From assembly GCA_027310755.1 (NCBI GenBank), contig DAIDAE010000005.1, forward strand, positions 1 through 41,506: a stretch of DNA of 41,506 bases. Reading direction: 5' to 3'. The translations under genes were made by a program, and so were the position numbers. Source of the DNA: Candidatus Micrarchaeaceae archaeon (GTDB taxonomy: Archaea; Micrarchaeota; Micrarchaeia; Micrarchaeales; Micrarchaeaceae). Of this stretch, positions 2,431 to 37,327 are shown piece by piece. The first letter of the stretch is position 1; each line of letters starts with the position of its first letter. The notes under the pieces are model-generated. The model saw only the letters and a list, made by a program, of their open reading frames with translations. It had not been told where the DNA came from and did no database searches.

Positions 2431-3861
2431 TTATTTCTTTTCCCTTTTCTCCATAGGGAAGAGTATTACCTCCTTCATGGACGGCTTATCGGTCAATACC
2501 ATTAGCAATCTGTCTATGCCTATTCCCATCCCAGCCGTGGGCGGCATGCCGTGCTCCATCGCCTCTACGAAATCCATGTCAAAGGGCTCTGTTTCCCTGT
2601 CGCCCGCCTTGCTCTTTTCTATCTCCCTTTCAAAATTCGCCCGCTGTATTATGGGGTTGTTCAACTCCGAATAGCCGTTGCCGAATTTTACCCCTGCCAC
2701 CATGGGCTCGAACCTCTCTATCAGGCGTGGATCCCCTCTCTTCGGCCTGCAAAGCGTAGTTGTTCCGGCAGGGTAATCAACTATGAAGGTGGGGTTTGTT
2801 ATCTTGGGCTGCACCAGCGCCTTGAGCAGCTTGTCGTAAATGTGCGCGCTGTTCCTTTCCCATTTTTCCATCTTTATGCCGTGTTTGTCTGCCACCTGCA
2901 GTAATTCCTTGTCGTCCAGGGACAGGACGTCCTTGCCGACCACGTCATTTATGCTATCAGCAAACTTCAATCTCCCAAACGGCGGCTTGAAGCTGATCTT
3001 TTTTTCCTTGTACGTTATTTCGTATGAACCGAACATCTCCTTTACCGCGTTGGACACCAGTTTTTCAGTCAATGACATCGCATCCTCATAATCCGCATAT
3101 GCCTGATACCACTCAAGCATCGTGAATTCGGGGCTGTGGGTCGCGTCCACATCCTCGTTCCTGAAGTCCTTGCATATCTCAAAGACCTTGTCCAAACCTC
3201 CCACTATCAGCTTTTTCAGGTAGAGTTCATCGGATATCCTGAGATAATCCTCCTCGTCCAGGGTATTGACGCGCGTCTTGAACGGAGTTGCTGTGGCTCC
3301 GCCGTATAGTGGCTGTATTACGGGAGTTTCAACCTCGATAAATCCCTCCTTTTCCAGGAAGGACCTGAAAATGCTTATCATCTTGCTTCTTGCCAGAAAT
3401 ACCTTCCTTATCTCGTAGTTCATTATCAGGTCGAGATACCTTTTTCTGTATCTTATTTCGGTGTCTTGGATCCCGTGCCATTTGTCCGGGAGCGGCCTCA
3501 GCGCTTTTGCCAGCTGGGCGTATTTTTCTACTTTTATGCTTACCTCACCCGGAGTTGTCTTGAACACTTCGCCCTCTATTCCAATTATGTCCCCAGGGCT
3601 CATTCCCTTTATTGTGTTAAACCTCTCCTCACCAAGTCCTTGAAACTCGAAATAAGCCTGTATTTTCCCAGTGGAGTCGAGTACATCGGCGAATATCAGC
3701 TTTCCCGCCTTCCTTATTGCCATTATCCTCCCTGCCACCGACACCCTTTTGCCCTCCATTTTTTGGTAATTATCCCTTATTTCCATTGCCTTGGTTGTGA
3801 CTTTATACGAGTATGGAAGCGATGATATGAGCGCCTTTAGCTCATCCTTGTTGTCAGGCAT
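2431..3861 (-). CDS. lysS: Lysyl-tRNA synthetase, class II
   Basis: OB-fold anticodon-binding N-terminus; class II motifs 'KRYLDLIMN', 'FIEVETPVIQPLYGGATATPF', 'FEICKDFRNEDVDATHSPEFTMLEWYQAYADYEDAM', 'GMGIGIDRLLMVLTDKPSMKEVILFP'. Confidence 0.95.
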   Translation of the reverse strand: MPDNKDELKALISSLPYSYKVTTKAMEIRDNYQKMEGKRVSVAGRIMAIRKAGKLIFADVLDSTGKIQAYFEFQGLGEERFNTIKGMSPGDIIGIEGEVFKTTPGEVSIKVEKYAQLAKALRPLPDKWHGIQDTEIRYRKRYLDLIMNYEIRKVFLARSKMISIFRSFLEKEGFIEVETPVIQPLYGGATATPFKTRVNTLDEEDYLRISDELYLKKLIVGGLDKVFEICKDFRNEDVDATHSPEFTMLEWYQAYADYEDAMSLTEKLVSNAVKEMFGSYEITYKEKKISFKPPFGRLKFADSINDVVGKDVLSLDDKELLQVADKHGIKMEKWERNSAHIYDKLLKALVQPKITNPTFIVDYPAGTTTLCRPKRGDPRLIERFEPMVAGVKFGNGYSELNNPIIQRANFEREIEKSKAGDRETEPFDMDFVEAMEHGMPPTAGMGIGIDRLLMVLTDKPSMKEVILFPMEKREKK

Positions 3862-3887
3862 AAAATTCGTATTTACTTATTTGGAAA

Positions 3888-3898
3888 TCTATATATAG
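3888..3898 (-). promoter_or_regulatory. TATA box of lysS (leaderless-type spacing)
   Basis: 'ctatatatag' ~27-37 bp upstream of the lysS ATG at 3861. Confidence 0.55.
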
Positions 3899-3933
3899 AG
3901 TACGCTAATCGGGAAAGAACGGCGAAAATAATG

Positions 3934-3984
3934 AGAAGGTAAGGGCCTGCCGAGGAGGGTAAAGTGGCAGGCCCTAAACCTTCT
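3934..3984 (-). other. Strong 17-bp imperfect hairpin between the wHTH gene 3' end and lysS promoter
   Basis: agaaggt(a)agggcctgcc / ggcaggccct(aa)accttct with 14-nt loop. Confidence 0.7.
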
Positions 3985-4002
3985 ACTGTGGGGGTGATAC
4001 AA

Positions 4003-4551
4003 TCAGTGCAATCCATCTGGGTTTTCCTCCCGTGGTGAAATAACCGTGAGCGCCCTGTCCGTCAATCTGTAATACACCTTGCGCCCTAGTTGGTGCCGCT
4101 CTACCAATCTGTCTTTTTCAAGCCTCTTTAGCCGTGCGGACGCAGCGTTCCTACCCTTGTAGTCCATCGCCTTCTTTACGTCATCCGCACAGGCCAGGTC
4201 CAGGCGCTGTATTGCCTGGAGAATCCTTTTGTCAATCTCTGATATAGGAACAATTTTGGTCGTGGTCGTGGGTTCCTCTGACTGTTGTGGTGCGCCTTGC
4301 ATCGTACTTTCTTCCAAGTCAGCATCAATTATTGTCTCTATGTGATTGATCCTGCCGGCCAGATCATCCAGCCTGCTGTTCATCACCTTTATTGTATTAG
4401 CCAGGATCAGGTATGCACCTGCGGCACCGGGCTTTTCCCTGCCCGGAAGCGCACTCTGCAGCCCCCTTTCGCCATTTTTTAGCGTTCTGAGCTGCTGGAG
4501 CTCCCTTTTTAGTTCGGTTATCTGGTTTTTAATATCATTTTTCATTGGCAT
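4003..4551 (-). CDS. Coiled-coil + winged-helix transcriptional regulator
   Basis: C-terminal 'SEIDKRILQAIQRLDLACADDVKKAMDYKGRNAASARLKRLEKDRLVERHQLGRKVYYRLTDRAL' is a typical wHTH; N-terminal heptad-like coiled coil. Confidence 0.78.
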   Translation of the reverse strand: MPMKNDIKNQITELKRELQQLRTLKNGERGLQSALPGREKPGAAGAYLILANTIKVMNSRLDDLAGRINHIETIIDADLEESTMQGAPQQSEEPTTTTKIVPISEIDKRILQAIQRLDLACADDVKKAMDYKGRNAASARLKRLEKDRLVERHQLGRKVYYRLTDRALTVISPREENPDGLH

Positions 4552-4591
4552 GTAACCCGCTCACAACACAGTCACGAACGTATTATGAAAC

Positions 4592-4612
4592 AATCATGAC
4601 TGAGTCATGATT
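4592..4612. promoter_or_regulatory. Perfect palindromic operator candidate upstream of the wHTH gene
   Basis: AATCATGACT-G-AGTCATGATT (10-bp arms); minus-strand TATA-like TTTAAATAT at 4631-4639 places it near the predicted TSS. Confidence 0.7.
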
Positions 4613-4765
4613 TATTTAGTGAATAGCTAGATATTTAAAGCTTCGTCTTTTTCCCTTTTTGTGGAAGTAAGATTCCTTGCGGAGATCCGACGGAACTCTG
4701 TAAACAGGTAAAAATAGGATTGGAAGAAGGCTTATAAAGAGCAAATAAAACTCATACACTGCAGC

Positions 4766-5302
4766 GTGTCAATTATGCAACAGGTTCAAATAACCGCGGA
4801 AAGACTGAAGGCCCTGAAGAAGGAGAATAGCCAGATAGCCCTCATAGAAAGGATATGCAGGTGCAGAATAAGCATAGACCAAGATGGGCTCATAACCATA
4901 TCCGGGGAAGACGGTTTCGGCGAGTTTGTGGCAAAAAACGTTCTCTTCGCATACGGGCGCGGCTTCGAGATGAAGCACGCGGAGCTCCTGGAAAAGGACG
5001 ATTACTACTTCCTGAGCGTGGACCTGGGGCAGATTTTCGGCAGCGAAAAAAGGATAAAGCAGATGAAGGCGAGAATCATAGGGGAAAACGGGAGGACGAA
5101 GACCTACATAGAGGGGGTGAGCGGGGCGAAACTGAGCGTGTACGGGGACACGGTAAGCTTTATAGGCTCACAATTGCAAATAGAGGAGGCGAAAACCGCA
5201 GTGGATACGCTCCTGGACGGCGGGGCGCACAAGACGGCTTATTTGAAAATGGAGGCTGCGCACAGGAAAAACAAGGCAAGGATACACAACGCGGCCTTTT
5301 AG
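4766..5302 (+). CDS. KH-domain RNA-binding protein (archaeal Pno1/Krr1-like)
   Basis: 'KARIIGENGRTKTYIEGVSGAKLSVYGDTVSFIG' KH motif; TATA 'cttataaag' at ~4731-4739; GTG start at 4766 or ATG at 4775. Confidence 0.82.
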   Translation: MSIMQQVQITAERLKALKKENSQIALIERICRCRISIDQDGLITISGEDGFGEFVAKNVLFAYGRGFEMKHAELLEKDDYYFLSVDLGQIFGSEKRIKQMKARIIGENGRTKTYIEGVSGAKLSVYGDTVSFIGSQLQIEEAKTAVDTLLDGGAHKTAYLKMEAAHRKNKARIHNAAF

Positions 5303-5310
5303 GTGACTGT

Positions 5311-6930
5311 ATGGCGGAGTCGAGGAATGCTGATGAGATTTTCAGGGAGTTCAAGGAACACTCCATAGCGGAGTTCTTCAAGAAGAACAGGCAAATGCTC
5401 GGATATTCCAGCATGGTGAGATCCCTGGTGACTGTTGTGCATGAATATGTCACCAACAGCCTGGACGCGGCGGAAGATGCCGGAATACTGCCGGACATCG
5501 AGGTTTGGCTGAAGGAGATAGGAGAAAACAAGTATATGGTAAGGGTTTCGGACAACGGCCCGGGCATACCGAAGAAATTCGTCGGCAAAGCGCTTGCCAC
5601 GGTGCTTGCAGGCACAAAGTTCCACAGGTATGTGCAGCAGAGGGGCCAGCAGGGCATAGGCGCGGCTGGGGCAACGCTCTTCGCGCAGATAACCACCGGG
5701 AAGCCCATCTTCGTGAAGAGCGGGATAGGGAAGGATTCATTCTCATGCCATGTATCCCTGGATACAATGAAGAACAGCGCGATAGTAAAGGATATGGAGA
5801 ATATTGATGACGGATTTAGGGGCCTGTCAGTGGAAGCGGAATTTGCAGACGTAAAATATGAGCAGAGCGAGCACGGGGTATATGAATACCTGAAAAGGAC
5901 CGCGCTCTCGAACCCCCACTGCCAGATAAAGTTCATAGATCCGTCCGGAAAGGAGAGCATTTTCATGAGGTCGGTAAAGGAGATGCCTCAAAAATCAAAG
6001 CCCACGCAGCCCCACCCTCTCGGGCTTGCCGTCAACGACCTGCTCGAGTTTGCGCACGCGAGCACGAGCAGAAAGATATCGTCGTTCTTTGTGGAAACTT
6101 TCGCGAGGACCACGTCAAACAAGGTTGCAGAGCTCAAGGATATTGCAAGGGGAGTGGACTTCGAGAAATCGCCAAAGGAGATGACATGGCCAGACGCGGA
6201 GGAGCTCATCAAGGCGATAAAGGCGATAAAATGGATAGCGCCGGATGCCACATCGGTGATACCCATAGGCGAGGAGCGCATAAAAACAGCCCTCAAGAAC
6301 ATACTCGACCCGGAATTCATGAACGTTGTTGAGAGAAAGCCGAGGGTTTTCCGCGGGGGCGTGCCGTTCGTGATAGAGGCAGCAGTAGCATACGGGGGGA
6401 AGGCCGGCTACAAGACCGAGGACGGCTCATCCGGTTCCATATTAAGATTTGCAAACAGGGTTCCCCTTCTCTTTGACGCCGGAAACTGCGCGATAACGGA
6501 GGGCATAAAGACAATAGAATGGCGGCGCTACGCAATAGACATGGAGACGCAGCCGGTGAGCGTCTTTGTCAACATGTCATCGGTCCATATACCATACTCG
6601 GGAGTGGGAAAGGAGGCCATAGCAAAGGAGGACGAGGTCATAGAGGAGATAAAGCTTGCGGTGATGGAGGCCGCCAGAGGGGTGCAGAGCTTTATACGCG
6701 GCAAGCACCAGGCGAACTTCGAATCTGGAAAATACAAAACCACGATGAGGTATGCGAAGCAGCTTGCAAAGGACCTTGCCGAGATGACGGGTGAAAATGA
6801 AAAAGCCCTGGAAACCAACCTTGAAAAAATAATTGCGACGCATTATCCGCACCTGAAGAAGGCCGAGATAAATGCAGAAAGAAAGGGGGAAAGCGCGGCG
6901 AGGGAGGAAGAAGTCGGAGACGCCGAATGA
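5311..6930 (+). CDS. top6B: DNA topoisomerase VI subunit B
   Basis: GHKL motifs 'VHEYVTNSLDAAEDAGILPDI', 'VSDNGPGIP', 'GQQGIGAAGATLFAQ'; ORF-track start at 4855 runs out of frame through the KH gene, so ATG at 5311 is preferred. Confidence 0.94.
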   Translation: MAESRNADEIFREFKEHSIAEFFKKNRQMLGYSSMVRSLVTVVHEYVTNSLDAAEDAGILPDIEVWLKEIGENKYMVRVSDNGPGIPKKFVGKALATVLAGTKFHRYVQQRGQQGIGAAGATLFAQITTGKPIFVKSGIGKDSFSCHVSLDTMKNSAIVKDMENIDDGFRGLSVEAEFADVKYEQSEHGVYEYLKRTALSNPHCQIKFIDPSGKESIFMRSVKEMPQKSKPTQPHPLGLAVNDLLEFAHASTSRKISSFFVETFARTTSNKVAELKDIARGVDFEKSPKEMTWPDAEELIKAIKAIKWIAPDATSVIPIGEERIKTALKNILDPEFMNVVERKPRVFRGGVPFVIEAAVAYGGKAGYKTEDGSSGSILRFANRVPLLFDAGNCAITEGIKTIEWRRYAIDMETQPVSVFVNMSSVHIPYSGVGKEAIAKEDEVIEEIKLAVMEAARGVQSFIRGKHQANFESGKYKTTMRYAKQLAKDLAEMTGENEKALETNLEKIIATHYPHLKKAEINAERKGESAAREEEVGDAE

Positions 6931-14280: not shown

Positions 14281-15632
14281 TGACATCCTCCCACCGCTAA
14301 AGCATGTGGGCTTCCCCTGCAACTTGGATTCCACTCTTTGTTGCAGAGTATGTTTTCAGTTCCTCGACGACAGCCTCCCTTTGAGGTCTTACATGATCTC
14401 CCCGAACGTGACTTCCCGTGTGTCCCACGGTAGCTCTTATGAGTATATTCTTTGCTGCGTTTATGTCCCTATCGAGATGCATTCCGCATCTGTTGCAGTT
14501 GTATGTCCTTTCCAACAGAGGCATCTCCATCAGGTTTCCGCAGTTACTGCATTTTTTCGACGTGTTCCTTGCATCCACTTTTATTACCTTCATACCAGCA
14601 CTTTCAGCCTTGTAAGAAAGTAGTTGTGCAAACCTGTTCCATGAAGCGTTATTTATCGACTGTGAAAGATTGTGATTCCTGACCATGTTTTGGATATGCA
14701 ACTCCTCCATTGCAAACGAAGTGTATCCTGATTTTACCAATCTGTCTGTCAGCTTATGAAGGTAGTCGTCTGATCGATTCGTAATGTGTTCCCATTTCTT
14801 TTGCAGGCGCAGTTTTGCAAGTTCCCTCCTATGAGAACCTTTCTTTCTTTTTGCGACTATCCTCTGCCATCTTGCAACGTGTTTCTGCGAATCCTTTCTG
14901 AACTTTGGTCTTAGGATTTTTGTTCCGTCGGAGAATGTTGCAAATGTTTCAAGACCCATATCGATGCCAACTGGGTTTGTATCATTTACTTTTAGGATTT
15001 TGATGTCTTTTATTGCAGTGAAAATCGCATAATATTTCCCTGCCTCCCTCTTTATTTTCATCGTCTTTATCTTTCCCTCAATGGGCCTGTGGAATTCAAT
15101 CTGCACCCTTCCGATTCTAGATATGCGGAGCATATTTTTCTCGATAGAAAATGCGCCATTGTCCTGCGGATATGTTATTGAATTATATCGGTCTCCTGAT
15201 TTGAAACGGGGATATCCGACTTTCTGTTTCTTTCCATTTTTCTTTTCCTTGACTCTTCTGAAGAAGTTTTGGTATGCCTTAAGAACCCTGTATTCTATTT
15301 CACATCGCGTCTGCGAATAAAGCAATAGAAATTCTTTGTTCTCTTTTATTATTGCCTTTACGAATTTATTGAATTGCGCCATGGAAACTTTTGCATTCCC
15401 TGTTTTATATGAAACAATGGAGTTTTCGAGGATTTTATTATAGAATTTTTGTGAAAGAATCAGTCTTTCGTTTATTTCTTTCTGCCTCTTAGAATCAGGG
15501 AATATCCTATACTTGTAGGCTCTTGTGGAATCCATATTTGTATCCTGTTTCTTCATATCTATATACCTTATGTTTCATTATCTTTTTCGCCCTCGCTTTC
15601 ATCCGCACTTGAAAGATGTGAGATTTCCCGCT
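14281..15632 (-). mobile_element. Solo IS605/IS1341-type TnpB element, copy 1, inserted in the secretion locus
   Basis: Left end (minus) TTCAT|AGCGGGAAATCTCACATCTTTCAAGTGCGGATGAAAGC; right end CCCACATGCTTTAGCGGTGGGAGGATGTCA hairpin; no TnpA in the window; exact right boundary uncertain by a few nt. Confidence 0.8.
14297..15556 (-). CDS. tnpB: RNA-guided nuclease TnpB (IS605 OrfB family), copy 1
   Basis: RuvC residues in 'GIDMGLETFATFSDGT', 'FAMEELHIQNM', 'DRDINAAKNIL'; zinc ribbon 'CSNCG...CNRCG'. Confidence 0.93.
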   Translation of the reverse strand: MKKQDTNMDSTRAYKYRIFPDSKRQKEINERLILSQKFYNKILENSIVSYKTGNAKVSMAQFNKFVKAIIKENKEFLLLYSQTRCEIEYRVLKAYQNFFRRVKEKKNGKKQKVGYPRFKSGDRYNSITYPQDNGAFSIEKNMLRISRIGRVQIEFHRPIEGKIKTMKIKREAGKYYAIFTAIKDIKILKVNDTNPVGIDMGLETFATFSDGTKILRPKFRKDSQKHVARWQRIVAKRKKGSHRRELAKLRLQKKWEHITNRSDDYLHKLTDRLVKSGYTSFAMEELHIQNMVRNHNLSQSINNASWNRFAQLLSYKAESAGMKVIKVDARNTSKKCSNCGNLMEMPLLERTYNCNRCGMHLDRDINAAKNILIRATVGHTGSHVRGDHVRPQREAVVEELKTYSATKSGIQVAGEAHML

Positions 15633-24487: not shown

Positions 24488-24892
24488 TTAGCATCCTCCT
24501 GCCGTCTGCGCATTTGCCACAACGGTCGTTGATGAGTATCCTGTCAGCACAGTCAGGATGTATGGGGCAAGGACTGCTATTATGATGCCTACTACGCCGC
24601 CGAGCACCATTCCCATTCCGTATCCCTGCATTGTCCCTTTTGAGGAACCAGGCATCAGGTGCGAGCCCGCATATAGTGCACCGCCCAATATCATCAGCAT
24701 CAAGCCGATCACAAAGATGGCGGTGGACACTGTTTGATAGACCTGGACTATGGAGCAGAGTACGCTGTTGCTCCCAGCTGTCGACGCAAAGGCCGGCGCA
24801 GCCATTATGCTCAATAGCGCCAGAGCCGCAAAGCCCAGTCTGAATACGTTGTTGTTCGCCGCGGACAACAGCTTGTATATTGGATTGTTCAT
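24488..24892 (-). CDS. VirB2/TrbC/CedA1-like pilin (major pilin candidate 1)
   Basis: Signal peptide then 'LCSIVQVYQTVSTAIFVIGLMLMILGGALYAGSHLMPGSSKGTMQGYGMGMVLGGVVGIIIAVLAPYIL' (two TM with short charged loop). Confidence 0.78.
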   Translation of the reverse strand: MNNPIYKLLSAANNNVFRLGFAALALLSIMAAPAFASTAGSNSVLCSIVQVYQTVSTAIFVIGLMLMILGGALYAGSHLMPGSSKGTMQGYGMGMVLGGVVGIIIAVLAPYILTVLTGYSSTTVVANAQTAGGC

Positions 24893-24936
24893 GCATTACA
24901 CCATTATGTTTTCAGATAATAACTGTGTGAGGAAGG

Positions 24937-24945
24937 TTTATAAAT
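24937..24945 (-). promoter_or_regulatory. TATA box of pilin gene
   Basis: Minus-strand ATTTATAAA ~45-50 bp upstream of the pilin ATG. Confidence 0.5.
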
Positions 24946-25082
24946 CTATCCACCAAGAGTTTTCTCCTTTTAAATAGTTTTTGATACCGGAAGTATGAGA
25001 AATATCCTCCAGAGTGGCCGTTATGGACAGGGTATGGAATACGGTGCTGTAATTATAGGATTGACTCAACCCTTTCCGAATG

Positions 25083-27578
25083 TCAGGAAACAGCAGGGCA
25101 GGCGCCGAGCAGGTTTGCAATTGGTATATTCGCAATCTGGGACACAGCATATACGGACACCGCCGCTATCGCCACGCCCACTATCCCGCCAATCACCATG
25201 CCGATCGCATATCCCTGGAGCGTGCCCCTCTGTTGCGACGGAAATATCGAGGAGCTTTCATAGAGTATTGCCCCGATTATCGCAAGCATCAGGCCTATGA
25301 GGAATATGATCCCATTGATCGTGGAGTATATGCTGCAAAGTTCCCCGCTGAGCGGCGCGACCACTGCGTTTCCAAAGTTTGTCCCGCTGCTGCCTATTGT
25401 AAATGGAGGACCCACAACAAATACCGATCCTGCCACGAATGTATTCTGGTACATCTCACATAGAAGGTATGTATTTGCGGCGAGGCCGCTGCCTGCAGGA
25501 GGGGGGGCACCGGAAGCGGTGGTCCATGTGGCGGTGCAGCTGTCGCCATACTGCGGATAACCTGATATTGCAATTGAACATCCTATCGTAGAGGAGCCCT
25601 GCCGGACAGGCGTCCATGCGCCATTGAGCTGCGGGGTGTAGCTTACCAGGCACCCTCCTTTGCCGCCGTCCGCGCTTGTACCGGTGCACGCCTTGCCGGA
25701 CGACTGCGTGACATCTGAGCACATGCTCTGCAGGTTGCCGATCTGCGCATTCTGCCCTATTGGCAGGAAGTATACGTTTGCGGGATAGTTTAGCGCTTCG
25801 TCGATGTTCGCCGTGATGGTGGATGGGTCGTAGTTTCCATTCTGGTCCGGCTGCATGCCATTGAAGACGGTTATTGTGCCGGATGCTGAACCGAGAAGGG
25901 TGTTGGTGCTGCTTATTACTGTGGGAAATTCTTCGTTGCTGGTCCCGAAGAGGCAGGTGGAGCCATTGCATTGTGCGTTAACGCTTGCAAAGAACAGGGC
26001 GGTGTTCGCCGTTGAATAAGCATATGGGGGAGTGCCGACGGACCACCCATCTCCGTTAGGATAGCCGTAGTTGGATCCCATTTGGAGAGGAGAGGTATAA
26101 TTATAAAGACAGAATGCATAATTGCCGGTCGTCGTTGGGATCCAGGATGGCACCGCCCATCCTCCCAAAGTTTCGCTTTCTATCAGGCACGGTAGCCCTG
26201 CCGCGCCGGCTACGTTGCCGCATGACGGGAGCGACACGACATTGCCGTTGGGGCCGAGTGGGGAAACACATCCCGCGGCGGTTGATCCGCCCGCGGCTTC
26301 CAGATACAAGTTTGGAGCTGAAGGATAAACGCATGGACCATTGCATGCGCCACTTACAGGAGGAGTCAAATCTCCCTGCAGATACCAGTACCACCAAAAG
26401 GGGGATTTGGTGCTTGTGTCCGGAATTGGATTCAGGATGCATCCCTTTATGCCCTTACCTCTGGTTGTGCTGTAGCAAGCCCCGGAGAGCTTCCAGCCTG
26501 AGCTCGGGTTCTGCATTTGCAGCATCCCGGGCTGGTCTGCTCCTGTAATATTTATGCTGCCTATCGCGCTCCAGCTTGGGCCGGCTGGAGTTTGGGGAGG
26601 CGGGCCCTCATTGGTGCCCTGGTAGAAGCCGCATACATCATACACCCCCTGCGGCAGCGTATCGTTTGTTATGTATGTCATGTTGCAATACGTGGGGCTC
26701 CAGCCCTGCGCCGAAGCTGGCATTGCCACGTTCGCAGTATCGAAAAGGCAGGGAGGATATGGATTCTGGGCGAAGCCACCGGTGCTGATGGCCTCATTGC
26801 AAAGAACATTCGTCGGGGAAGATGAGGTCGTGAGCGTAGTGGTCAGCTTGTCCGGGGCGGCGCATGAACCCCCGGGCGCGGAGAGCTCTATGAGCGTAGC
26901 GTCTGTGCACGAAGCATTGTATACTACCTCGCTGATGTAGGTGGAGGTTCCCGGGATCAGCTTCGTCGCGGCAATGCTGAGTTGGCTTGATATTGGATAT
27001 ATGCCGTTTAGAACAACCTCCGCATCGACAAGACTGCTGCAGGTGCCACTTCCGGCGCCGGAAGTTATAAACACGTTATATGTGCCCGGGGGTTCTGATA
27101 TTGTATTCTGGTATGTAAGGCACCAGTCCGTCGTGTGGCCTGAATCCACCACAGTCCCGCTGATTGTGTTTGTTATCTTCCATGAAACATAACCGGTGCT
27201 GCCGCCGCCAGCGGAGAGAGCGAGCTGCCCGCCTGTCCATATGCAGATTGCATTGGTAGATGTACTGTAAGCACTTTCAGATACTGAAAAGCCGTTGCAG
27301 CTGTTGCTGATGGATCCGCTAGAAGTTACAAAAAGGGTCTGGAAGACTTGCAATCCGTCCGTAGTGTCAAAAGCGCTTACCGTGGAGATGCCTGGGGCCG
27401 TGGCGGTTATGAGATCCTTCGTATTGGTTGCAACAGGATTAATTGATATACTCAGCGTGGGCATGCCGCTACTGTAAGTTCCAGGATTTGCCTGTGCTAT
27501 TGTATTGTACGGCAGGAGAACTAGCATGGATATTACGATACAGAGCATCACTGTTTTAGGAAGACTGCGATTCGTCAT
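25083..27578 (-). CDS. Giant secreted protein with C-terminal pilin-like (VirB2) two-helix module
   Basis: Signal peptide; Cys/Thr/Ser-rich exterior; C-terminal 'LCSIYSTINGIIFLIGLMLAIIGAILYESSSIFPSQQRGTLQGYAIGMVIGGIVGVAIAAVSVYAV'. Confidence 0.75.
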   Translation of the reverse strand: MTNRSLPKTVMLCIVISMLVLLPYNTIAQANPGTYSSGMPTLSISINPVATNTKDLITATAPGISTVSAFDTTDGLQVFQTLFVTSSGSISNSCNGFSVSESAYSTSTNAICIWTGGQLALSAGGGSTGYVSWKITNTISGTVVDSGHTTDWCLTYQNTISEPPGTYNVFITSGAGSGTCSSLVDAEVVLNGIYPISSQLSIAATKLIPGTSTYISEVVYNASCTDATLIELSAPGGSCAAPDKLTTTLTTSSSPTNVLCNEAISTGGFAQNPYPPCLFDTANVAMPASAQGWSPTYCNMTYITNDTLPQGVYDVCGFYQGTNEGPPPQTPAGPSWSAIGSINITGADQPGMLQMQNPSSGWKLSGACYSTTRGKGIKGCILNPIPDTSTKSPFWWYWYLQGDLTPPVSGACNGPCVYPSAPNLYLEAAGGSTAAGCVSPLGPNGNVVSLPSCGNVAGAAGLPCLIESETLGGWAVPSWIPTTTGNYAFCLYNYTSPLQMGSNYGYPNGDGWSVGTPPYAYSTANTALFFASVNAQCNGSTCLFGTSNEEFPTVISSTNTLLGSASGTITVFNGMQPDQNGNYDPSTITANIDEALNYPANVYFLPIGQNAQIGNLQSMCSDVTQSSGKACTGTSADGGKGGCLVSYTPQLNGAWTPVRQGSSTIGCSIAISGYPQYGDSCTATWTTASGAPPPAGSGLAANTYLLCEMYQNTFVAGSVFVVGPPFTIGSSGTNFGNAVVAPLSGELCSIYSTINGIIFLIGLMLAIIGAILYESSSIFPSQQRGTLQGYAIGMVIGGIVGVAIAAVSVYAVSQIANIPIANLLGACPAVS

Positions 27579-27706
27579 ATTACCCTTTCCTTTTCGACTT
27601 AATTAATTATTAAGAGGTATTTAAATTACTGATAGTTTTGCATTCCATTCCAAATCGCGACCTGCTGATCAAAACTACGTTATTGATTTTGTACTTGTTA
27701 TATTGA

Positions 27707-30700
27707 CTACGGATTTACGGGAGGATTTGCACCGTAGTTATACGTATATAGAGATCCATTACCGCCGGAAGCGCCTTGGAGAATGCCGTTTTTGCCATCA
27801 CAATTTGGACCCATAGTACCTGCCTGACCGCCACTATAAGATATACCGCTCGTTGATCCCAGCACAGAATTGAACGCCAGCACCACTATGCCACCACCGC
27901 CACCACCGCCTTGCCCTGCAAATACGCAGCCCTCCTGACTTTGTTGCGTAGTGCTAGGGGATCCGCCCATTTGACCGCCGGCCAATATAGTACCAGGGTT
28001 TAACACCACAGCCTGGATGTACAGGCCATATGCACCCGAACCGCCGGCTGCGCCTGCTTCAGCAGCGCCATTAATACATCCGGAGCCGCCGCTGCCGCCT
28101 CCTGCACCCTCGAGATATTGATACATCCCATTACCAAACCATGATGCCAGATTATTCTGCCAGCCCGCCGGCAGCTTGGCATTTGCCCCAGAGTATGGAC
28201 CCGCGCACGATCCTCCGTTGGTATCGCATCCTATTCCATTGGCACCATCTGTTGTGCCAGATGCGGGAAGGGTAAATCCCCCATAACCTGTTTGTGTTAT
28301 GGGTGCTGAACCTGTGTAATAGCACGAGGGTTCGCCTCCTCCGATACCGCAATTGCTCTGAGAGAGATAATTGTAATCGCCCACGCCCCCTCCGCCTGAG
28401 CCACCATAGGATGAGCTTGCGGAGATGCCATCATTTGCATATGAGCCGCTGCCGCAGCTTCCTCCGCAGAGGACACTGCATGCGCTTGGCTGTACACCAC
28501 CTGGGGCGCTGTTCCCTGTTATTATCATGCCAGAGTTAGTAAACACTCCTCCAGTTATTATACTGTAGCCCGCAGTTGTGAGTGTAACACCGGGTGCGAT
28601 TGTCACATCGCACTGAGTATTCACGTCACCGCCGAGGGTCTGGCTGGAGGAGAATATTGTCTGGCATCTCGGATCGACGATCAATGTGGCCTGCGAAGAC
28701 GTGCCGGTCAATGTGTCAATAGCAGTATAGGTGTAGCTGCCTGGCGTGTCCCATATTCCAGTGCTCCCAGAGCATCCGCCTGTACCGGAACAGACCGTCC
28801 CAGTGCTGCCACCGGGGCCAATCGGACCAGTCACTTTACACGTGTCTCCACTCACTCCGAATGGCAGCGCACATATGACTGTGGAACTCTGATATGTGAA
28901 TATTGAGCTTGGGTTTATGCTTATCGTTGGAGGGGGTGCGGGCTGGACGTTGAGTATTATAGAATTGGTGGTGTCCAATGTGGTGTCGGTAGCTGTATAG
29001 GTGTAGCTGCCTGGCGTGTCCCACGGACCCGCTTTTCCAGAGCAGCTGTTTGTCGAGGGCCCGCAGATGACCGTGCTCCCCTGTATTATTTCCACGCTAT
29101 CCCCGCTTAGGACAGTGGTGGCGGTGACGGTTGTGCTGTGATACGCGTATATAGGATTGGCTGCAAGTTTTATTATCGGAGGGGGAGGGGTTGAGGTAAG
29201 AGTTGCTGAATTCGCAGTTTGGGTTGTAGTATCTAAGGCCCAGTATGTGGTTGTGCCTATGCTTGAAGGTGTGACTGAAGCGGTGCACGTTCCCGCGCTT
29301 GGCCCGCATAGCGGGGTTCCGAAGAACGACGCCGACACCTCACACAAGTCAGTGCTTGGGAAGCATGTTGCAGTGACCTGCGCACTGCTTCCGGCGTATA
29401 CTGGGTTGGGCACTATTGAAATATCTGGAACTGTTGGAGATGGAGGCGGGAGTATTGTATTGGTGCTCGGGGTGTTGAATCCCTGTAATCCTGCACCGCT
29501 GCATGAATTGAGCGCCAATATCTGCCCTACAGACAAACCTGTGCCCACGGTGAGGAAGTATATAGATACCACGGTTATCACCGCGCTGGCAACGCCGGCT
29601 ATGACCAATCCCATTCCATAAGCCTGGGCCTGGCCCCTCGCCTGCCCTGGCAGGAGCGATGCGCCCGCATAGAGGACGGTGCCGATGAGCATTATCACCA
29701 ACGCGAGCACGAAAAGAGATTCCGATACATACAGGTACAGGGAGCACGCCGTATTCTGTATCGAATTGAACCCCGCAGGGGTACCGGTCGATGTCGAGCA
29801 GAATGGGTTATAGCCGTTGCAGGAGCCGGTGGTGAAAAATGTGAATCCCCAGAACATCCCGTTGTCGGTTTCCGGGGAGGTTATACCGTCACCCTGGACG
29901 GCCGGATTGTATGGCGGGACATTCTCGTATGCACAGACCTCGTAATTATTCGGGGACAGGCGAGAGGAGTCGAGTTCCGCCGAGACCGCAACCGGGTCGG
30001 TTGACGATAGTGTGGTGTAGCCCGCGCTTCCCAAAAGGCAGGGAAGGTTTGCGGTTGTCGGGTCTGCCATGATCTGCGAAGAACGGCGCACGGCTACCGT
30101 GTAGGTCGGGCACGCAGGCATTATCCCTGGATCTACACAGTACTGGCTGCTGAAAAGGGCGCCGCTCACGGAGTCCGGGCTCGACAGTTCAAGATATATA
30201 TTGGTAGGGTTCTGCAAGGACGTCTGGTAGCTGCCGGTGGAGCACCCGGAACATGTTATAGCCGTGCCCACCGCCGATATGCTGTATGTATTTGCACCGG
30301 TATTAATCGCGTTTACTTGCAATGGGGAGAGCATGTTGTAGACCGGTACATAATACGGCCCATAAACCACGTTTCCATCGGCGCCTGATCCCCCATAAAG
30401 GGCATTTGCCAATATTGCATTTGTTACGGCAGTGCCAGGCGTGTCCGGCGATGACACAAAGCTTGACGGGATGCTGGTTGTTTCTCCATTGTACGTCCAG
30501 TAGCATTGCGCCGCATCCCCATTGCAGGCGCCGGTGGTTCCCGCCCTTGAGATATCCGCCACGATGATAGTGTAACATAGATTGTAGATTCCCGGACCCT
30601 TGTTTATGATTCCGGCACCGTTTATCATGTTGTCAGTGACCCATCCAGTAGCCACGCAGTCGAACGGACCTAGGCCGTGTCCCGGGCCGCATGAGCTTGC

Positions 30701-31165
30701 TGCGCCAGGCTGGCATTGGCCGTTTTCGTACCCGCAGGTGCCTGCAAGTTCAGATGGGCCATTCGTGTACGGCCATCCTCCCTGAATATTTGACATCTGG
30801 GCAGAGCTGGGGCACTGGTAAACCCAGAAATAGCATGAAGGGCCGTACTGGCAGGTATTGGTGCCAACGTCGTAGCCAGTCTGCACCTCCTGGCAGTAAT
30901 TGTTTATGCCGTTTACAGAGGCGTAGATGGATACCTGCGTGGAGCCGCCGGTGAGCGTGCTTGGCTGCAGCACCGACACGTCCACTGTGTTGAACACATT
31001 TGCTATCGAGGGCGCAGGGCCGGAGCATGCGGATACCGCTGCGGCCTGGTGCAACAGCACAGATAGCAAAACAAATGAGATGAAGAGCGTGAGAAGTACA
31101 GACGCTGCTGGTTTGGCTGGCATTCTTGGACCACTGGCCCTGCACGATCCGCATGGAGCGTGCAC
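27707..31165 (-). CDS. Giant secreted protein with internal pilin-like module, three Ig-like repeats and a Gly-rich C-terminal domain; translation start probably ATG at 31123
   Basis: Signal peptide 'MPAKPAASVLLTLFISFVLLSVLLHQAAA'; module 'CSLYLYVSESLFVLALVIMLIGTVLYAGASLLPGQARGQAQAYGMGLVIAGVASAVITVVSIYFL'; 'WDTPGSYTYTA' repeats; 'GGGGGGGIVVLAF' tail. Confidence 0.78.
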   Translation of the reverse strand: MHAPCGSCRASGPRMPAKPAASVLLTLFISFVLLSVLLHQAAAVSACSGPAPSIANVFNTVDVSVLQPSTLTGGSTQVSIYASVNGINNYCQEVQTGYDVGTNTCQYGPSCYFWVYQCPSSAQMSNIQGGWPYTNGPSELAGTCGYENGQCQPGAASSCGPGHGLGPFDCVATGWVTDNMINGAGIINKGPGIYNLCYTIIVADISRAGTTGACNGDAAQCYWTYNGETTSIPSSFVSSPDTPGTAVTNAILANALYGGSGADGNVVYGPYYVPVYNMLSPLQVNAINTGANTYSISAVGTAITCSGCSTGSYQTSLQNPTNIYLELSSPDSVSGALFSSQYCVDPGIMPACPTYTVAVRRSSQIMADPTTANLPCLLGSAGYTTLSSTDPVAVSAELDSSRLSPNNYEVCAYENVPPYNPAVQGDGITSPETDNGMFWGFTFFTTGSCNGYNPFCSTSTGTPAGFNSIQNTACSLYLYVSESLFVLALVIMLIGTVLYAGASLLPGQARGQAQAYGMGLVIAGVASAVITVVSIYFLTVGTGLSVGQILALNSCSGAGLQGFNTPSTNTILPPPSPTVPDISIVPNPVYAGSSAQVTATCFPSTDLCEVSASFFGTPLCGPSAGTCTASVTPSSIGTTTYWALDTTTQTANSATLTSTPPPPIIKLAANPIYAYHSTTVTATTVLSGDSVEIIQGSTVICGPSTNSCSGKAGPWDTPGSYTYTATDTTLDTTNSIILNVQPAPPPTISINPSSIFTYQSSTVICALPFGVSGDTCKVTGPIGPGGSTGTVCSGTGGCSGSTGIWDTPGSYTYTAIDTLTGTSSQATLIVDPRCQTIFSSSQTLGGDVNTQCDVTIAPGVTLTTAGYSIITGGVFTNSGMIITGNSAPGGVQPSACSVLCGGSCGSGSYANDGISASSSYGGSGGGGVGDYNYLSQSNCGIGGGEPSCYYTGSAPITQTGYGGFTLPASGTTDGANGIGCDTNGGSCAGPYSGANAKLPAGWQNNLASWFGNGMYQYLEGAGGGSGGSGCINGAAEAGAAGGSGAYGLYIQAVVLNPGTILAGGQMGGSPSTTQQSQEGCVFAGQGGGGGGGIVVLAFNSVLGSTSGISYSGGQAGTMGPNCDGKNGILQGASGGNGSLYTYNYGANPPVNP
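28725..28753. repeat. 29-bp perfect direct repeat, copy 1 (encodes WDTPGSYTYT in Ig-like repeat 3)
   Basis: gtataggtgtagctgcctggcgtgtccca identical to 28995..29023. Confidence 0.85.
28995..29023. repeat. 29-bp perfect direct repeat, copy 2 (Ig-like repeat 2)
   Basis: identical to 28725..28753. Confidence 0.85.
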
Positions 31166-31190
31166 GGGAACATTAGTATGTATCTGGGGG

Positions 31191-31204
31191 CTTTTAAATA
31201 TTTA
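31191..31204 (-). promoter_or_regulatory. TATA-containing promoter element CTTTTAAATATTTA (plus-strand spelling) upstream of the 1152-aa gene
   Basis: 14-bp identical element at 34280..34293 upstream of the 881-aa gene. Confidence 0.55.
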
Positions 31205-31229
31205 TTTGAATGCAGGGGGAGCGCGGTTG

Positions 31230-31613
31230 TCATTTGCATATCCATGCGTCGGGCACGGATGGGCAGGACGGGTTTGATCCATCGTGGAGGAAGGTGCATG
31301 TCTTGCCAACCGGGCATGTACCACTAGTACAGCCATTGCCACCAGGGCCTCCGCCGCAGGTATACTATTGTGATATGGTGGTTGTGGTGGTTTTGATGGT
31401 TGTCGTGGTTGCCTTGCAATTAAATACCGGTTTGGCGCCGTTAAGCCCGCAGCCGCTGGTGGAAGTCATCACGCAGGTTTCACCGGAGGGATAGTAACTG
31501 AAGCCGTAGTATTGCCCGCAGAAATTCGAGCCAGGTACGGTGGTGGTGCCCACCGATGTGCTCAATGAGGTGGCGGTTATGGTTGTTGTGGTGCTCGTGG
31601 TTATTGCCGGCGC
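31230..31613 (-). other. In-frame extension of the 881-aa ORF beyond TAG (31614-31616): Thr-rich linker + Cys-rich module, second TAG (31365-31367), second Cys-rich module, TGA (31230-31232)
   Basis: LCRA[TAG]APAITTSTTTTITATSLSTSVGTTTVPGSNFCGQYYGFSYYPSGETCVMTSTSGCGLNGAKPVFNCKATTTTIKTTTTTISQ[TAG]YTCGGGPGGNGCTSGTCPVGKTCTFLHDGSNPSCPSVPDAWICK[TGA], translated by hand. Confidence 0.7.
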
Positions 31614-34259
31614 CTATGCCCTGCAGAGGCTTATCGCGTTGACAAGCGAGGTTTGATTCACTGAAGACAGCGCGTAAACCCCGATCACCGCAATCAGGGC
31701 GGCTATCACTCCCACCATGATAAAGCCGGTGCCGTAGCTCTGGATAGGGCCCCTTCCGGCTCCGGGAAGAAGAGTCGAGCCGGAATACAGCACGGCCCCA
31801 AGAAGCATCATCAAGAGGGCAAATATAAATAGGGAGTCATTTATTGCACCGTAGACGCCGCATGCGATGCCGGCATACGAATTGGGATTCAATGAATTGT
31901 AAACTCCTATTCCTCCCGGGCCGATACCGAATGCACAGCCTGGGCACAAGGAGTTTGGCACCTCCTGTGGGTTCGGGAACGCTGTGCAATACCCATTTGC
32001 GCAATCGACAGACATCGAGGCGAAGAAGGGGGAGAAATACATTGAGTTTGCATTGCAATTCAACCCAAACACGGAGCAGTAATTGGAATAGTCTACTGCG
32101 TATACCAAGTAGTTACCAGTTCCCAGATATTGCGTATCGAAGGGCTGCTCATATGTGAAGTTCTGGCTGTTGCCGTACGTGTTCGTGGTGTACCCGTTCA
32201 ATATGCATGAATCCTCTGCCACGCTATTGCTAGGATTGTAGCTCCAGTACAACAGGGGGCACGAGTAGCTGGGAAGAGTACCACAGCCCGGACCCACAGA
32301 CATGCAGGTCTCGCTTCCTGATGATGTAATGCCAAACAGGTAGCTGCCCCCTCCCCCTCCTGGACAGTTGATGGCCGATATGATCTCTGGCACGGTCAAT
32401 GGAGGAGTATAACTGTAAAGAGCCATGGTGGGCACGGGGGAAATTGCACCACTGCAGGAAAACCCAGGAGTGGGTGCTATCTCTGCGGCCGAGGCGCCGA
32501 GGTTCCTGCCAGCCGCTATGGAATTTTCTGTTCCAGCAAACCCTATGTAGCAGAGATCACCCACCGGACATATCTCTGGCTTTGTCCCGATGGGATTTGA
32601 ATATGACTGCATTGCAACGATCTTGATCATTATCGTGCTGCCTTCCCTGAATTGCTGTGGCGGAGTTACGGAAGGAACAAGGGTAAGCCCGTAGCTCCAG
32701 GAGGGCACCTTTGTTATATTTATTGTGGTGCATGAAGCGAGAGTTGCGGAACTGGGGTTGCCGCTGCTATCGAAATACGCACAGTATTGTGCATAGTGGT
32801 TTACACCAGGCCAGCCGCCATAATCATTGGTGTTTGTAAAGTTTGATATCTGGCATGTCCCGCCCGCGCCGGAGTTGCAGCTGGCGAACACCGTTGGGTC
32901 GTGGAACCAGCAGGCGTTGGAGACCGACGACCAACCGACCAACCATCCGGTCTGGCCGTACTGGCTGCACTGCGCTCCCCCTACGCTACCCAGATTCTGA
33001 GGAGGCTGCACCGTATTGGCAAATATGACAAAGAACGTATCCTTCTGCAAGTTGGACGGGGAGTAACAATTTCCCAGCGTTGCAACAACATTGCCTATCG
33101 CGAAAGATACGTTTGAGGACGTGCCGACCATTATTATGCCGGGATATGCAATCAAGGAATTTGAAAGCGGTGACACAATCCCTGTGCCGCTGCTGCAGGG
33201 CGCTATTGAAGTAGTTGTTGAGCTGCCAGTTGTGGTGGTTGATGATCTGCCAGGTATTGTAGTAGTGGAGGTGGGTGGGGGGCTGCCGCTCGGACAAGTA
33301 TTGCCAGAAGCATACCAAAGTTCCAAAAACTTTGTGAAGGCGGTTATGTTTCCGGGGAGAATATTCAACCAGTCGCCGCTCACGTTGTGGCATGTGCCAA
33401 CTGCATCTTCATAAAACTGCAGTCCTGTTATCGGAGTCCTTCCAGAAGTAAGACCCCCTAGCGTGACTATACTGCCGCCGTTGCTGATGGCATTGGACAT
33501 TATCTGCGTGGCCTCATGGTTTAGGAAGCTGTTGAATGTGTCGCTTGAGGATTGCAGGGATTGCGCCTGGATGCTGAAGATTCGGCCAAGTGGGGGCGGC
33601 AGCGTCGGGTTTCCGGAATAGGTAACGCCTATCTTCTCGCCGTAGTCGCCGTAGTAGAACCTGGTTGCATCGCAGCCCCACTGGCCAGGACAATATGACG
33701 ACAGCGTACCGTTGTCCCCCGTGATATCCAATCCCGGCGCGGGGATGTATATCAAGCCGTGCAGGCGGGCCCACGCAGCGACTATGGACGAATATGACCA
33801 TATGTAATCCTGTTCGGACTGGGGTGTGTTAGGCCATTTCTCATTGTCGTACTGTACGGCCGTGATAGGAACTGGAGATGACGGTACCGGAGGGTTCTTA
33901 CCTGTGCATGTGCTTACGCTCGTGCAACCAGCGAAGCCTTGCCAACTGTCAATTTTAATCATGCAGTGCGCATTCGGTATATATGTGCACTCGGTGTATG
34001 GGCCGCCAGGGTTCACATCCATGTAGGTATTTGGATTGTTGAACCACTGCTGAAGGAGGGCGTTTGACGTGCCTCCCGACATCGGGCTCCCGCTGCATCC
34101 TCCGGAGTTGCAGCCGGTAGCCACGCCGAAGTCGGCTATATTTGAATATTGGTTTATGCCGAGTATCCATGTCTCGGCATATGCACCATATGAAAAATAC
34201 GCAATCAGGATTGAAACGAGAAGAATCGTCCTGCCCCTGCCCGAGAGCGCCATATGCAC
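31614..34259 (-). CDS. Giant secreted protein: TIM-barrel/glycosidase-like N-terminal domain, Thr-rich linker, C-terminal pilin-like module
   Basis: 'ITAVQYDNEKWPNTPQSEQDYIWSYSSIVAAWARLHGLIYIPAPGLDI'; 'PTSTTTIPGRSSTTTTGSSTTT'; 'GVYGAINDSLFIFALLMMLLGAVLYSGSTLLPGAGRGPIQSYGTGFIMVGVIAALIAVIGVYAL'. Confidence 0.75.
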   Translation of the reverse strand: MHMALSGRGRTILLVSILIAYFSYGAYAETWILGINQYSNIADFGVATGCNSGGCSGSPMSGGTSNALLQQWFNNPNTYMDVNPGGPYTECTYIPNAHCMIKIDSWQGFAGCTSVSTCTGKNPPVPSSPVPITAVQYDNEKWPNTPQSEQDYIWSYSSIVAAWARLHGLIYIPAPGLDITGDNGTLSSYCPGQWGCDATRFYYGDYGEKIGVTYSGNPTLPPPLGRIFSIQAQSLQSSSDTFNSFLNHEATQIMSNAISNGGSIVTLGGLTSGRTPITGLQFYEDAVGTCHNVSGDWLNILPGNITAFTKFLELWYASGNTCPSGSPPPTSTTTIPGRSSTTTTGSSTTTSIAPCSSGTGIVSPLSNSLIAYPGIIMVGTSSNVSFAIGNVVATLGNCYSPSNLQKDTFFVIFANTVQPPQNLGSVGGAQCSQYGQTGWLVGWSSVSNACWFHDPTVFASCNSGAGGTCQISNFTNTNDYGGWPGVNHYAQYCAYFDSSGNPSSATLASCTTINITKVPSWSYGLTLVPSVTPPQQFREGSTIMIKIVAMQSYSNPIGTKPEICPVGDLCYIGFAGTENSIAAGRNLGASAAEIAPTPGFSCSGAISPVPTMALYSYTPPLTVPEIISAINCPGGGGGSYLFGITSSGSETCMSVGPGCGTLPSYSCPLLYWSYNPSNSVAEDSCILNGYTTNTYGNSQNFTYEQPFDTQYLGTGNYLVYAVDYSNYCSVFGLNCNANSMYFSPFFASMSVDCANGYCTAFPNPQEVPNSLCPGCAFGIGPGGIGVYNSLNPNSYAGIACGVYGAINDSLFIFALLMMLLGAVLYSGSTLLPGAGRGPIQSYGTGFIMVGVIAALIAVIGVYALSSVNQTSLVNAISLCRA

Positions 34260-34279
34260 CGGATAATAATGGCTACATC

Positions 34280-34293
34280 CTTTTAAATATTTA
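34280..34293 (-). promoter_or_regulatory. TATA-containing promoter element upstream of the 881-aa gene
   Basis: cttttaaatattta identical to 31191..31204. Confidence 0.55.
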
Positions 34294-34330
34294 GTTTATC
34301 AGTGTGCAATGTCCCGTTTTCGATGTTAGG

Positions 34331-34702
34331 TCAGAATCCAGGGCAGAACGTGGCTATGTTTGTGGCTGAAGTGCTGAATATCTGGCCGAGCAGCCATGGC
34401 GCCAGCATCGCTATTATCGCGCCTATTGTGCCGCCTATCACCAGGCCCATCGCATATGCTTGCACCTGCCCCCTCGCGGATCCTGGAAGGATCTGCGCAC
34501 CCGAGTAGACTGCGCCCCCCAAAATCATGAGGGTCAATGCCAATATGAACACCGCGTCGTTGACCACAAAGTATACGCTGCATATCGCGTTTGTGACATT
34601 GCTCTGCGCGCCGCTCGTACCGGAGAGCGCCGTCCCCAGCAGCACGAACGCCGTCATCAGCACGCGCAGGATGTTCGGAAGGTTGGCTTCAACTTTGGTC
34701 AT
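34331..34702 (-). CDS. VirB2/TrbC/CedA1-like pilin (major pilin candidate 2)
   Basis: 'ICSVYFVVNDAVFILALTLMILGGAVYSGAQILPGSARGQVQAYAMGLVIGGTIGAIIAMLAPWLL'. Confidence 0.78.
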   Translation of the reverse strand: MTKVEANLPNILRVLMTAFVLLGTALSGTSGAQSNVTNAICSVYFVVNDAVFILALTLMILGGAVYSGAQILPGSARGQVQAYAMGLVIGGTIGAIIAMLAPWLLGQIFSTSATNIATFCPGF

Positions 34703-35993: not shown

Positions 35994-37327
35994 AGTGGGA
36001 AAACCCACGACTTTCAATCATGGGATGAAAGCAGGCGCGACACAAAATGTATAAACATTGGCAGGCAAGTGAACATGGTCATCTTGAAGACGGCGTATAA
36101 ATTCAGGGCGTATCCTTCGCAGATACAAAAATCAAGACTTCATCACCAGATGTCCCTATCAAAACAGCTATGTAATCTTCTCCTTGAACAATCACAAAAA
36201 CACTTTAAGGATACTGGAAAGACTTTCACAAAATACGACATGAACAAATGGATTACGAAATTCAAGAGAAAGAATCCGGACTTCAATGAACTCCATTCTC
36301 AGGTTTGTCAGAATGTCGCAGACAGAGTATCAAAAGGATACAAAAACTTCTTCAGGAGGATAAGGGAGAGAAAGCAGGGAAAGAAAGTCAGGGTTGGATT
36401 TCCACGTTTCAAATCCTATGTTTCGTCATTGACCTACCCTCAGGACAATGGATTCAAGATAGAAAGGAAAAGAATATCCCTCTCAAAGATAGGAAGAATC
36501 AATTTCGTGAACCATAGGGAAATCGAAGGAAAGGTAAAAACCGCCACAATAAAACAGACCAAATCTCAGGAATGGTATGTCACCATTTCTGTCGAGAAGG
36601 ACGACGTGCCGATATTTTCCAATAATAAACCGCAGGTAGGAATGGATTTGGGACTGAAGGAATACGCAACCTTGTCAGATGGGACAAAAATATCTAATCC
36701 AAGAATCTCCAACAAGTCAATAGACAAACTGAAAACGATTCAGAGGAGATTGTCAAAAAAGAGGAAAGGAGGAAGGAACAGAAGACTTGCAAAAATCAAA
36801 CTTGCAAGAATCTCTGAACACATTGTAAGACAGAGAGGGGATTTCCTTCACAAGACTTCTCATAATCTCGTGAATTCATACTCATTCATTGCATACGAGG
36901 AATTGAAGATTGCAAATATGGTAAAGAACCATAATCTTGCAAGGCAGATAACGGACGTTTCTTGGGGAAACTTCATCCAATATCTTTGCTACAAGGCTGA
37001 GAACGCTGGTTGCAAAGTGGTTGGAGTGAACCCAGAGAATACCTCGAAAACATGCAGTGGATGTGGAAATATACAGGACATTGAATTGAGCGAAAGGACA
37101 TATCTCTGTCGGCGATGCGGACTGAAAATTGACAGGGATTTGAACGCATCAATCAATATCCTAACTACCGCAGGACTTGCGGGAAGTAACGCCTCTGGAG
37201 ACGTTGTAAGACCTCAACTACGGGAGGCTGTCGTCGTTGAATCAGGAACTAAATTTGGTGTTTCACGATGACCAATCAAAAGAACGCCATTGGAAGCCAA
37301 CGACATTCGGTCGTTGGAGGATGTCAA
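35994..37327 (+). mobile_element. Solo IS605/IS1341-type TnpB element, copy 2, upstream of / fused to a glycosyltransferase
   Basis: Left end TTCAT|AGTGGGAAAACCCACGACTTTCAATCATGGGATGAAAGC; right-end hairpin CCAACGAC-ATTCG-GTCGTTGG (37297-37317) + AGGATGTCAA; boundary uncertain by a few nt. Confidence 0.8.
36069..37271 (+). CDS. tnpB: RNA-guided nuclease TnpB (IS605 OrfB family), copy 2
   Basis: 'GMDLGLKEYATLSDGT', 'IAYEELKIANM', 'CSGCG...CRRCG', 'DRDLNASINIL'. Confidence 0.93.
   Translation: MNMVILKTAYKFRAYPSQIQKSRLHHQMSLSKQLCNLLLEQSQKHFKDTGKTFTKYDMNKWITKFKRKNPDFNELHSQVCQNVADRVSKGYKNFFRRIRERKQGKKVRVGFPRFKSYVSSLTYPQDNGFKIERKRISLSKIGRINFVNHREIEGKVKTATIKQTKSQEWYVTISVEKDDVPIFSNNKPQVGMDLGLKEYATLSDGTKISNPRISNKSIDKLKTIQRRLSKKRKGGRNRRLAKIKLARISEHIVRQRGDFLHKTSHNLVNSYSFIAYEELKIANMVKNHNLARQITDVSWGNFIQYLCYKAENAGCKVVGVNPENTSKTCSGCGNIQDIELSERTYLCRRCGLKIDRDLNASINILTTAGLAGSNASGDVVRPQLREAVVVESGTKFGVSR

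Follow-up and report, generated by a model that had tools for sequence, protein, structure and literature searches.

Among described systems, the VirB2/TrbC-type pilins of type IV secretion systems (T4SS; PF04956, PF18895) resemble the gene analyzed here in having a short hydrophobic C-terminal pilin domain and, as cluster neighbors, a HerA/VirB4-like ATPase and several multi-TM proteins, but here large extracellular regions, with Thr linkers and Cys modules, are joined to the pilin domain. The frame of this gene also continues past two TAG codons, and in-frame UAG is what it has in common with the pyrrolysine decoding of methanogens. A review of archaeal recoding names stop codon readthrough as demonstrated just for Sec and Pyl insertion (PMC8211752). 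None of the papers searched brings Micrarchaeota, type IV secretion and pilin together. The locus lies in a contig of 41,506 nucleotides from a Candidatus Micrarchaeaceae archaeon (GCA_027310755.1), all of which is called the window below.

Layout of the locus

The features of the gene and of the "tail" that follows its stop codon are listed in Table 1. Re-reading of the sequence confirmed the coordinates, codons and translation that a first-pass annotation had given for the TAG-interrupted tail: the frame reads ISLCRA-TAG(31616-31614)-APAITTSTTTT...NFCGQYYGFSYYPSGETCVMTSTSGCGLNGAKPVFNCK-ATTTTIKTTTTTISQ-TAG(31367-31365)-YTCGGGPGGNGCTSGTCPVGKTCTFLHDGSNPSCPSVPDAWICK-TGA(31232-31230), it is open for 82 codons from TAG1 to TAG2 and then for 44 codons from TAG2 to the TGA, and the peptide stretches encoded beyond the TAGs include PVFNCK and TCTFLHDGSNPSCPSVPDAWICK. 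The annotation's observation that the TAGs fall at domain boundaries also holds, as TAG1 follows the pilin and TAG2 lies between a linker and a module. We considered and rejected the idea that the tail is an independent gene; the first start codon available in frame, a TTG 17 codons in, has neither a signal peptide nor an A/T-rich promoter. An antisense 94-aa ORF that crosses the tail (31210-31494, + strand) has no family match.

Table 1. The 881-aa pilin-fusion gene, the frame beyond its stop codon and the next gene (positions in the window)
Feature	Position	Strand	Remarks
Pilin-fusion ORF, 881 aa	31614..34259	-	Signal peptide, ~320-aa N-terminal domain, internal Thr/Ser linker, Cys-rich surface region, C-terminal VirB2/TrbC-like pilin domain; end ...ISLCRA TAG
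TAG1	31614..31616	-	Two residues past the pilin's terminal Cys; stop site of orthologues
Thr/Ser-rich linker APAITTSTTTTITATSLSTSVGTTTVPGS	31527..31613	-	After TAG1
Cys module 1, NFCGQYYGFSYYPSGETC...NCK	31413..31526	-	4 Cys
Second Thr-rich linker ATTTTIKTTTTTISQ	31368..31412	-	
TAG2	31365..31367	-	At linker/module boundary
Cys module 2, YTCGGGPGGNGCTSGTCPVGKTCT...WICK	31233..31364	-	All 6 Cys retained
TGA	31230..31232	-	Closes the tail frame
A/T-rich box aaatatttaaaag	31190..31203	-	Just past the tail; same type as the box upstream of the 881-aa ORF; from its sequence, probably an archaeal TATA box serving the 1152-aa gene
Second large pilin fusion, 1152 aa	27707..31165	-	Next gene in the cluster; syntenic in congeners

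The pilin region of the 881-aa ORF is 41% identical over 80 aa to the 123-aa pilin at 34331-34702, and a neighboring 134-aa pilin matches TrbC (2.3e-5) without reaching the gathering score. The 881-aa ORF itself has no Pfam match; searches of its protein against genome contigs and viral contigs found no relatives, and a plasmid DNA search gave no match. Its N-terminal ~320 aa (33260-34250, - strand) have neither a Pfam match nor a clear solved relative, and the aligned congeners do not match there. The stretch VQYDNEKWPNTPQSEQDY in this part may resemble enzyme-like TIM-barrel proteins. Elsewhere in the window we noted a NUDIX domain fused to a uracil-DNA glycosylase (1461-2429, +) and two TnpB-like ORFs (14297-15556, -, and 36069-37271, +; Cys-x2-Cys zinc-finger and RDxNA motifs by eye), one within the T4SS-like cluster and the other adjoining it.

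Coding character of the tail

Is the tail derived from protein-coding sequence, as the first-pass annotation proposed? Read in frame, segment 1 (after TAG1) has a codon score of +0.08 per codon and segment 2 (after TAG2) one of -0.16; the shifted frames score -0.43 to -0.46 and the main ORF +0.07. Segment 1 scores like coding sequence, and both segments score higher than the shifted frames. There is no frameshift in the 384 nt of the tail, and module 2 is complete. With composition correction off, a module profile built solely from intact modules in the genomes of relatives (a three-module version was also run) put the post-TAG2 segment (E 7e-7) at the top of the genome's 22,815 open segments, followed by the post-TAG1 segment (E 0.002). 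When each segment was shuffled 5000 times with its residue composition preserved, 0 and 0 shuffles reached the real score uncorrected and 0 and 2-4 of 5000 did so with bias correction, so the match is order-specific and goes beyond Cys content. With the bias-corrected 3-sequence profile both tail segments are within genome-wide noise by E-value, and the significance of the module homology is taken from the uncorrected ranking and the shuffles. On the evidence of in-frame codon score and of module homology beyond composition, we conclude that the tail is coding-derived. It would once have been translated as part of this gene, and would not be translated now.

The two Cys modules were originally described as similar. 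Both do match the family profile, through which their kinship is visible, but they are unequally complete (4 and 6 cysteines in modules 1 and 2, respectively) and their direct similarity is weak (E 0.11). In an alignment made by eye, module 1 has the Tyr codons TAC and TAT at the second and third Cys positions of the intact modules, each one transition away from a Cys codon; these replacements would suit decay or the coherent loss of one disulfide. The only Pfam matches of the tail were weak ones of segment 2 to CCCH zinc fingers (E 4e-4 at best; 20.6 bits, with the cut-off at 30), which we dismissed as matches to the Cys pattern in a secreted context, and searching with the tail alone across 60 relatives gave mostly chance matches.

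The Cys module in other Micrarchaeota

In a module search of 301 genomes of the phylum, all copies except the two in the window sit in an open frame; the one stop flagged among them is the TGA with which the G022 gene ends. The G022 copy is intact in a 208-aa frame that consists of a small pilin, a Thr/Ser linker and the module, and in G012 a linker and module form the C-terminus of a 1198-aa pilin fusion. The module is also found with a linker in secreted proteins (G004 and G160), in a repeat-rich surface protein (G099) and inside VirB6-like membrane proteins (G092 and G032). Intact homologues of the interrupted part exist in relatives, as is expected if it was cut off by nonsense mutation. 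The small module, C...C...TCPSGxxC...C...C with Thr/Ser linkers, recurs on unrelated Micrarchaeota surface proteins (L011/L147, L034, L148, L174, L176, L179, L180); it is apparently undescribed so far and apparently a mobile, recurrent surface element of these archaea.

Orthologous clusters

The cluster is syntenic in five congeners (G001, G004, G012, G006 and G013), with a small pilin, three large pilin fusions and then pilin and VirB6-like genes, and with local differences. Three large fusions are present in all six genomes, the window's included. The syntenic counterparts of the 881-aa gene have no tail (G001, G004, G012 and, more distantly related, G006 and G013). Where the end was read, this first fusion stops 1 to 3 residues past the pilin's last Cys, and in G012 too the stop codon is TAG. 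Here 448 nt separate this first fusion from the gene that follows, compared with 20 (G004), 111 (G012), 10 (G006), 4 (G013) and -11 (G001). Tail-less orthologues and short gaps argue that the tail is lineage-specific and that TAG1 stands at the natural end of the protein. The first-pass annotation had set against a coding tail a pattern of orthologues that end at the first TAG with nothing similar downstream; one half of this pattern is found, in that the orthologues end tail-less at the TAG1 site, but related tails are fused to other pilins in other genomes.

Among the six species of the genus, the order of the small pilin and three large fusions beside VirB6-like and VirB4-like genes (24488-34702, -; L032-L037) is conserved, and the fusions are strongly divergent outside the pilin domain. 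A search with the cluster's ATPase gave named relatives that are nearly all MAGs of Micrarchaeota (64-73% identity, one at 51%). Two genes carry tandem pilin domains in single frames, L036 (G002:C22, ~3550-5540; 847 aa, about seven matches) and L037 (G013:C8, 19062-20195; 633 aa, about four matches), and are polyprotein-like strings of T4SS pilins in one gene.

Use of TAG in the genome

TAG is a normal terminator in this genome (868 kb in 62 contigs, 90% complete, 35 kb read as N). It terminates 160 of the 646 long ORFs (25%). It also ends the gene for aRF1, which is intact (NIKS, YxCxxxF and GGQ motifs), and it stands exactly at the end of the family profile in archease; the first-pass view that genome-wide reassignment looks unlikely is thus borne out. 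Local UAG recoding by pyrrolysine or another suppressor, an option that the annotation had left standing and that would accord with both internal stops being TAG, has next to no probability in our estimate. ARAGORN found no CUA-anticodon tRNA, with or without introns, in the 868 kb of this ~90% complete genome (35 kb N), and no pylS scored above the cut-off (the best TIGR02367 match has 25.6 bits against 178.15). The sub-threshold PylS_Cterm matches lie in frames that resemble other class II synthetases and include the lysyl-tRNA synthetase of the window. These searches contradict pyrrolysine recoding, and the TAG ends of archease and of aRF1 itself also speak against local recoding. Recoding is not supported.

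Explanations for the interrupted tail

Stepwise nonsense truncation of a lineage-specific, adhesin-like tail is, we think, the likely explanation. The 881-aa gene, which stands first among the three large pilin fusions of a Micrarchaeota type-IV-secretion-like cluster, would have gained in this lineage a C-terminal display tail of Thr/Ser linker, Cys module, Thr linker and Cys module, its Cys module being a putatively mobile surface module that other Micrarchaeota surface proteins also carry. Two in-frame nonsense mutations to TAG would then have shortened the protein, TAG2 probably first, with loss of the terminal module, and TAG1 after it, with loss of the remainder and return to the tail-less form of the orthologues. 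Stops at the linker edges leave a folded pilin, so truncation there should be tolerable, and stops in such places are what one would expect if truncated forms persist only when their domains stay folded. About 2.3-3.6% of random substitutions within the tail create a stop, and two nonsense mutations by drift alone imply roughly 17-42 substitutions and some indels. Set against that expectation, the intact frame, the in-frame codon bias and the complete module 2 mean that the truncation was recent, lucky or selected; it was probably recent or favored. We found no close strain that has a sense codon in place of TAG1 or TAG2, and the truncation events themselves are a reconstruction. Of the three options first offered, module decay by nonsense mutation fits best with the related intact modules, the tail-less orthologues and the lack of amber-decoding machinery in the genome as searched.

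If UAG were instead read through at a low or programmed level, most chains would end at TAG1 as plain pilin, a minority would carry module 1 and still fewer module 2 as well, giving rare adhesive subunits in the fiber. The frame, codon bias and module 2 cysteines kept across two stops would suit this, as would the position of the stops exactly at domain boundaries with a linker immediately past TAG1, and RNA structure is predicted after TAG1 (single sequence; z = -2.59, 1 of 200 shuffles as stable). After TAG2, however, no stem is predicted (single sequence; z = +1.06), there is no suppressor tRNA and aRF1 is ordinary, and two serial leaky stops should give very little full product. None of the five syntenic relatives has a conserved in-frame extension, and no second case was seen in this genome: when its intergenic space was scanned throughout for coding-like sequence continuing a gene in frame, most finds were new genes that start early or antisense artefacts, and there was no other stop-interrupted tail like this one. 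The archaeal demonstrations named in the review are limited to Sec and Pyl insertion (PMC8211752). Programmed readthrough, raised in the first-pass annotation, thus gained no positive evidence, and we regard readthrough of either kind as unlikely. It is improbable, too, that two serial leaky UAGs without a dedicated tRNA provide this DPANN T4SS-like pilus with a small fraction of adhesin-tipped subunits bearing zero, one or two Cys modules.

TAG1 could instead be the original stop and the tail a stray 3' fragment, from some other pilin-fusion or surface gene, that fell in frame downstream and was later hit by TAG2. TAG1 does lie at the orthologues' stop site, and in G012 the following gene carries the module at its C-terminus. 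But with three large fusions in all six clusters no gene is missing here, which speaks against a deleted fourth gene as the source; the frame match would be a 1-in-3 coincidence, and the Thr/Ser run begins a few codons past TAG1, just as it does past the last Cys of the intact G022 pilin. We consider such an origin rather improbable. That the two TAGs reflect an error of assembly or consensus, or a mixture of strains, is very unlikely; the genome is indeed incomplete and in 62 contigs, but two independent substitution errors, both to TAG, within 250 nt and without indels are hardly to be expected.

If truncation is correct, the locus is a snapshot of how small archaea gain and trim surface modules on their secretion pili, and these modules may mediate contact there. 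Were readthrough demonstrated instead, it would be archaeal stop readthrough outside Sec and Pyl insertion, which is absent from the review cited above.

Comparison with known systems

Pyrrolysine decoding differs from the present case in that here there is no pylS and no tRNA(CUA), and UAG is a working terminator. The Thr-linker/Cys-module surface proteins of Micrarchaeota (C-C-TCPSGxxC-C-C), such as those of G012, G022, G004, G160, G099, G092 and G032, have the same motif and linkers, but modules beyond stops occur only in the window. C-terminally truncated surface-protein genes of prokaryotes (partial pseudogenes) share with this locus an intact core, an in-frame homologous remnant past a premature stop, and tail-less or tailed relatives; here, in contrast, two serial stops lie at linker edges and the remnant is still well preserved.
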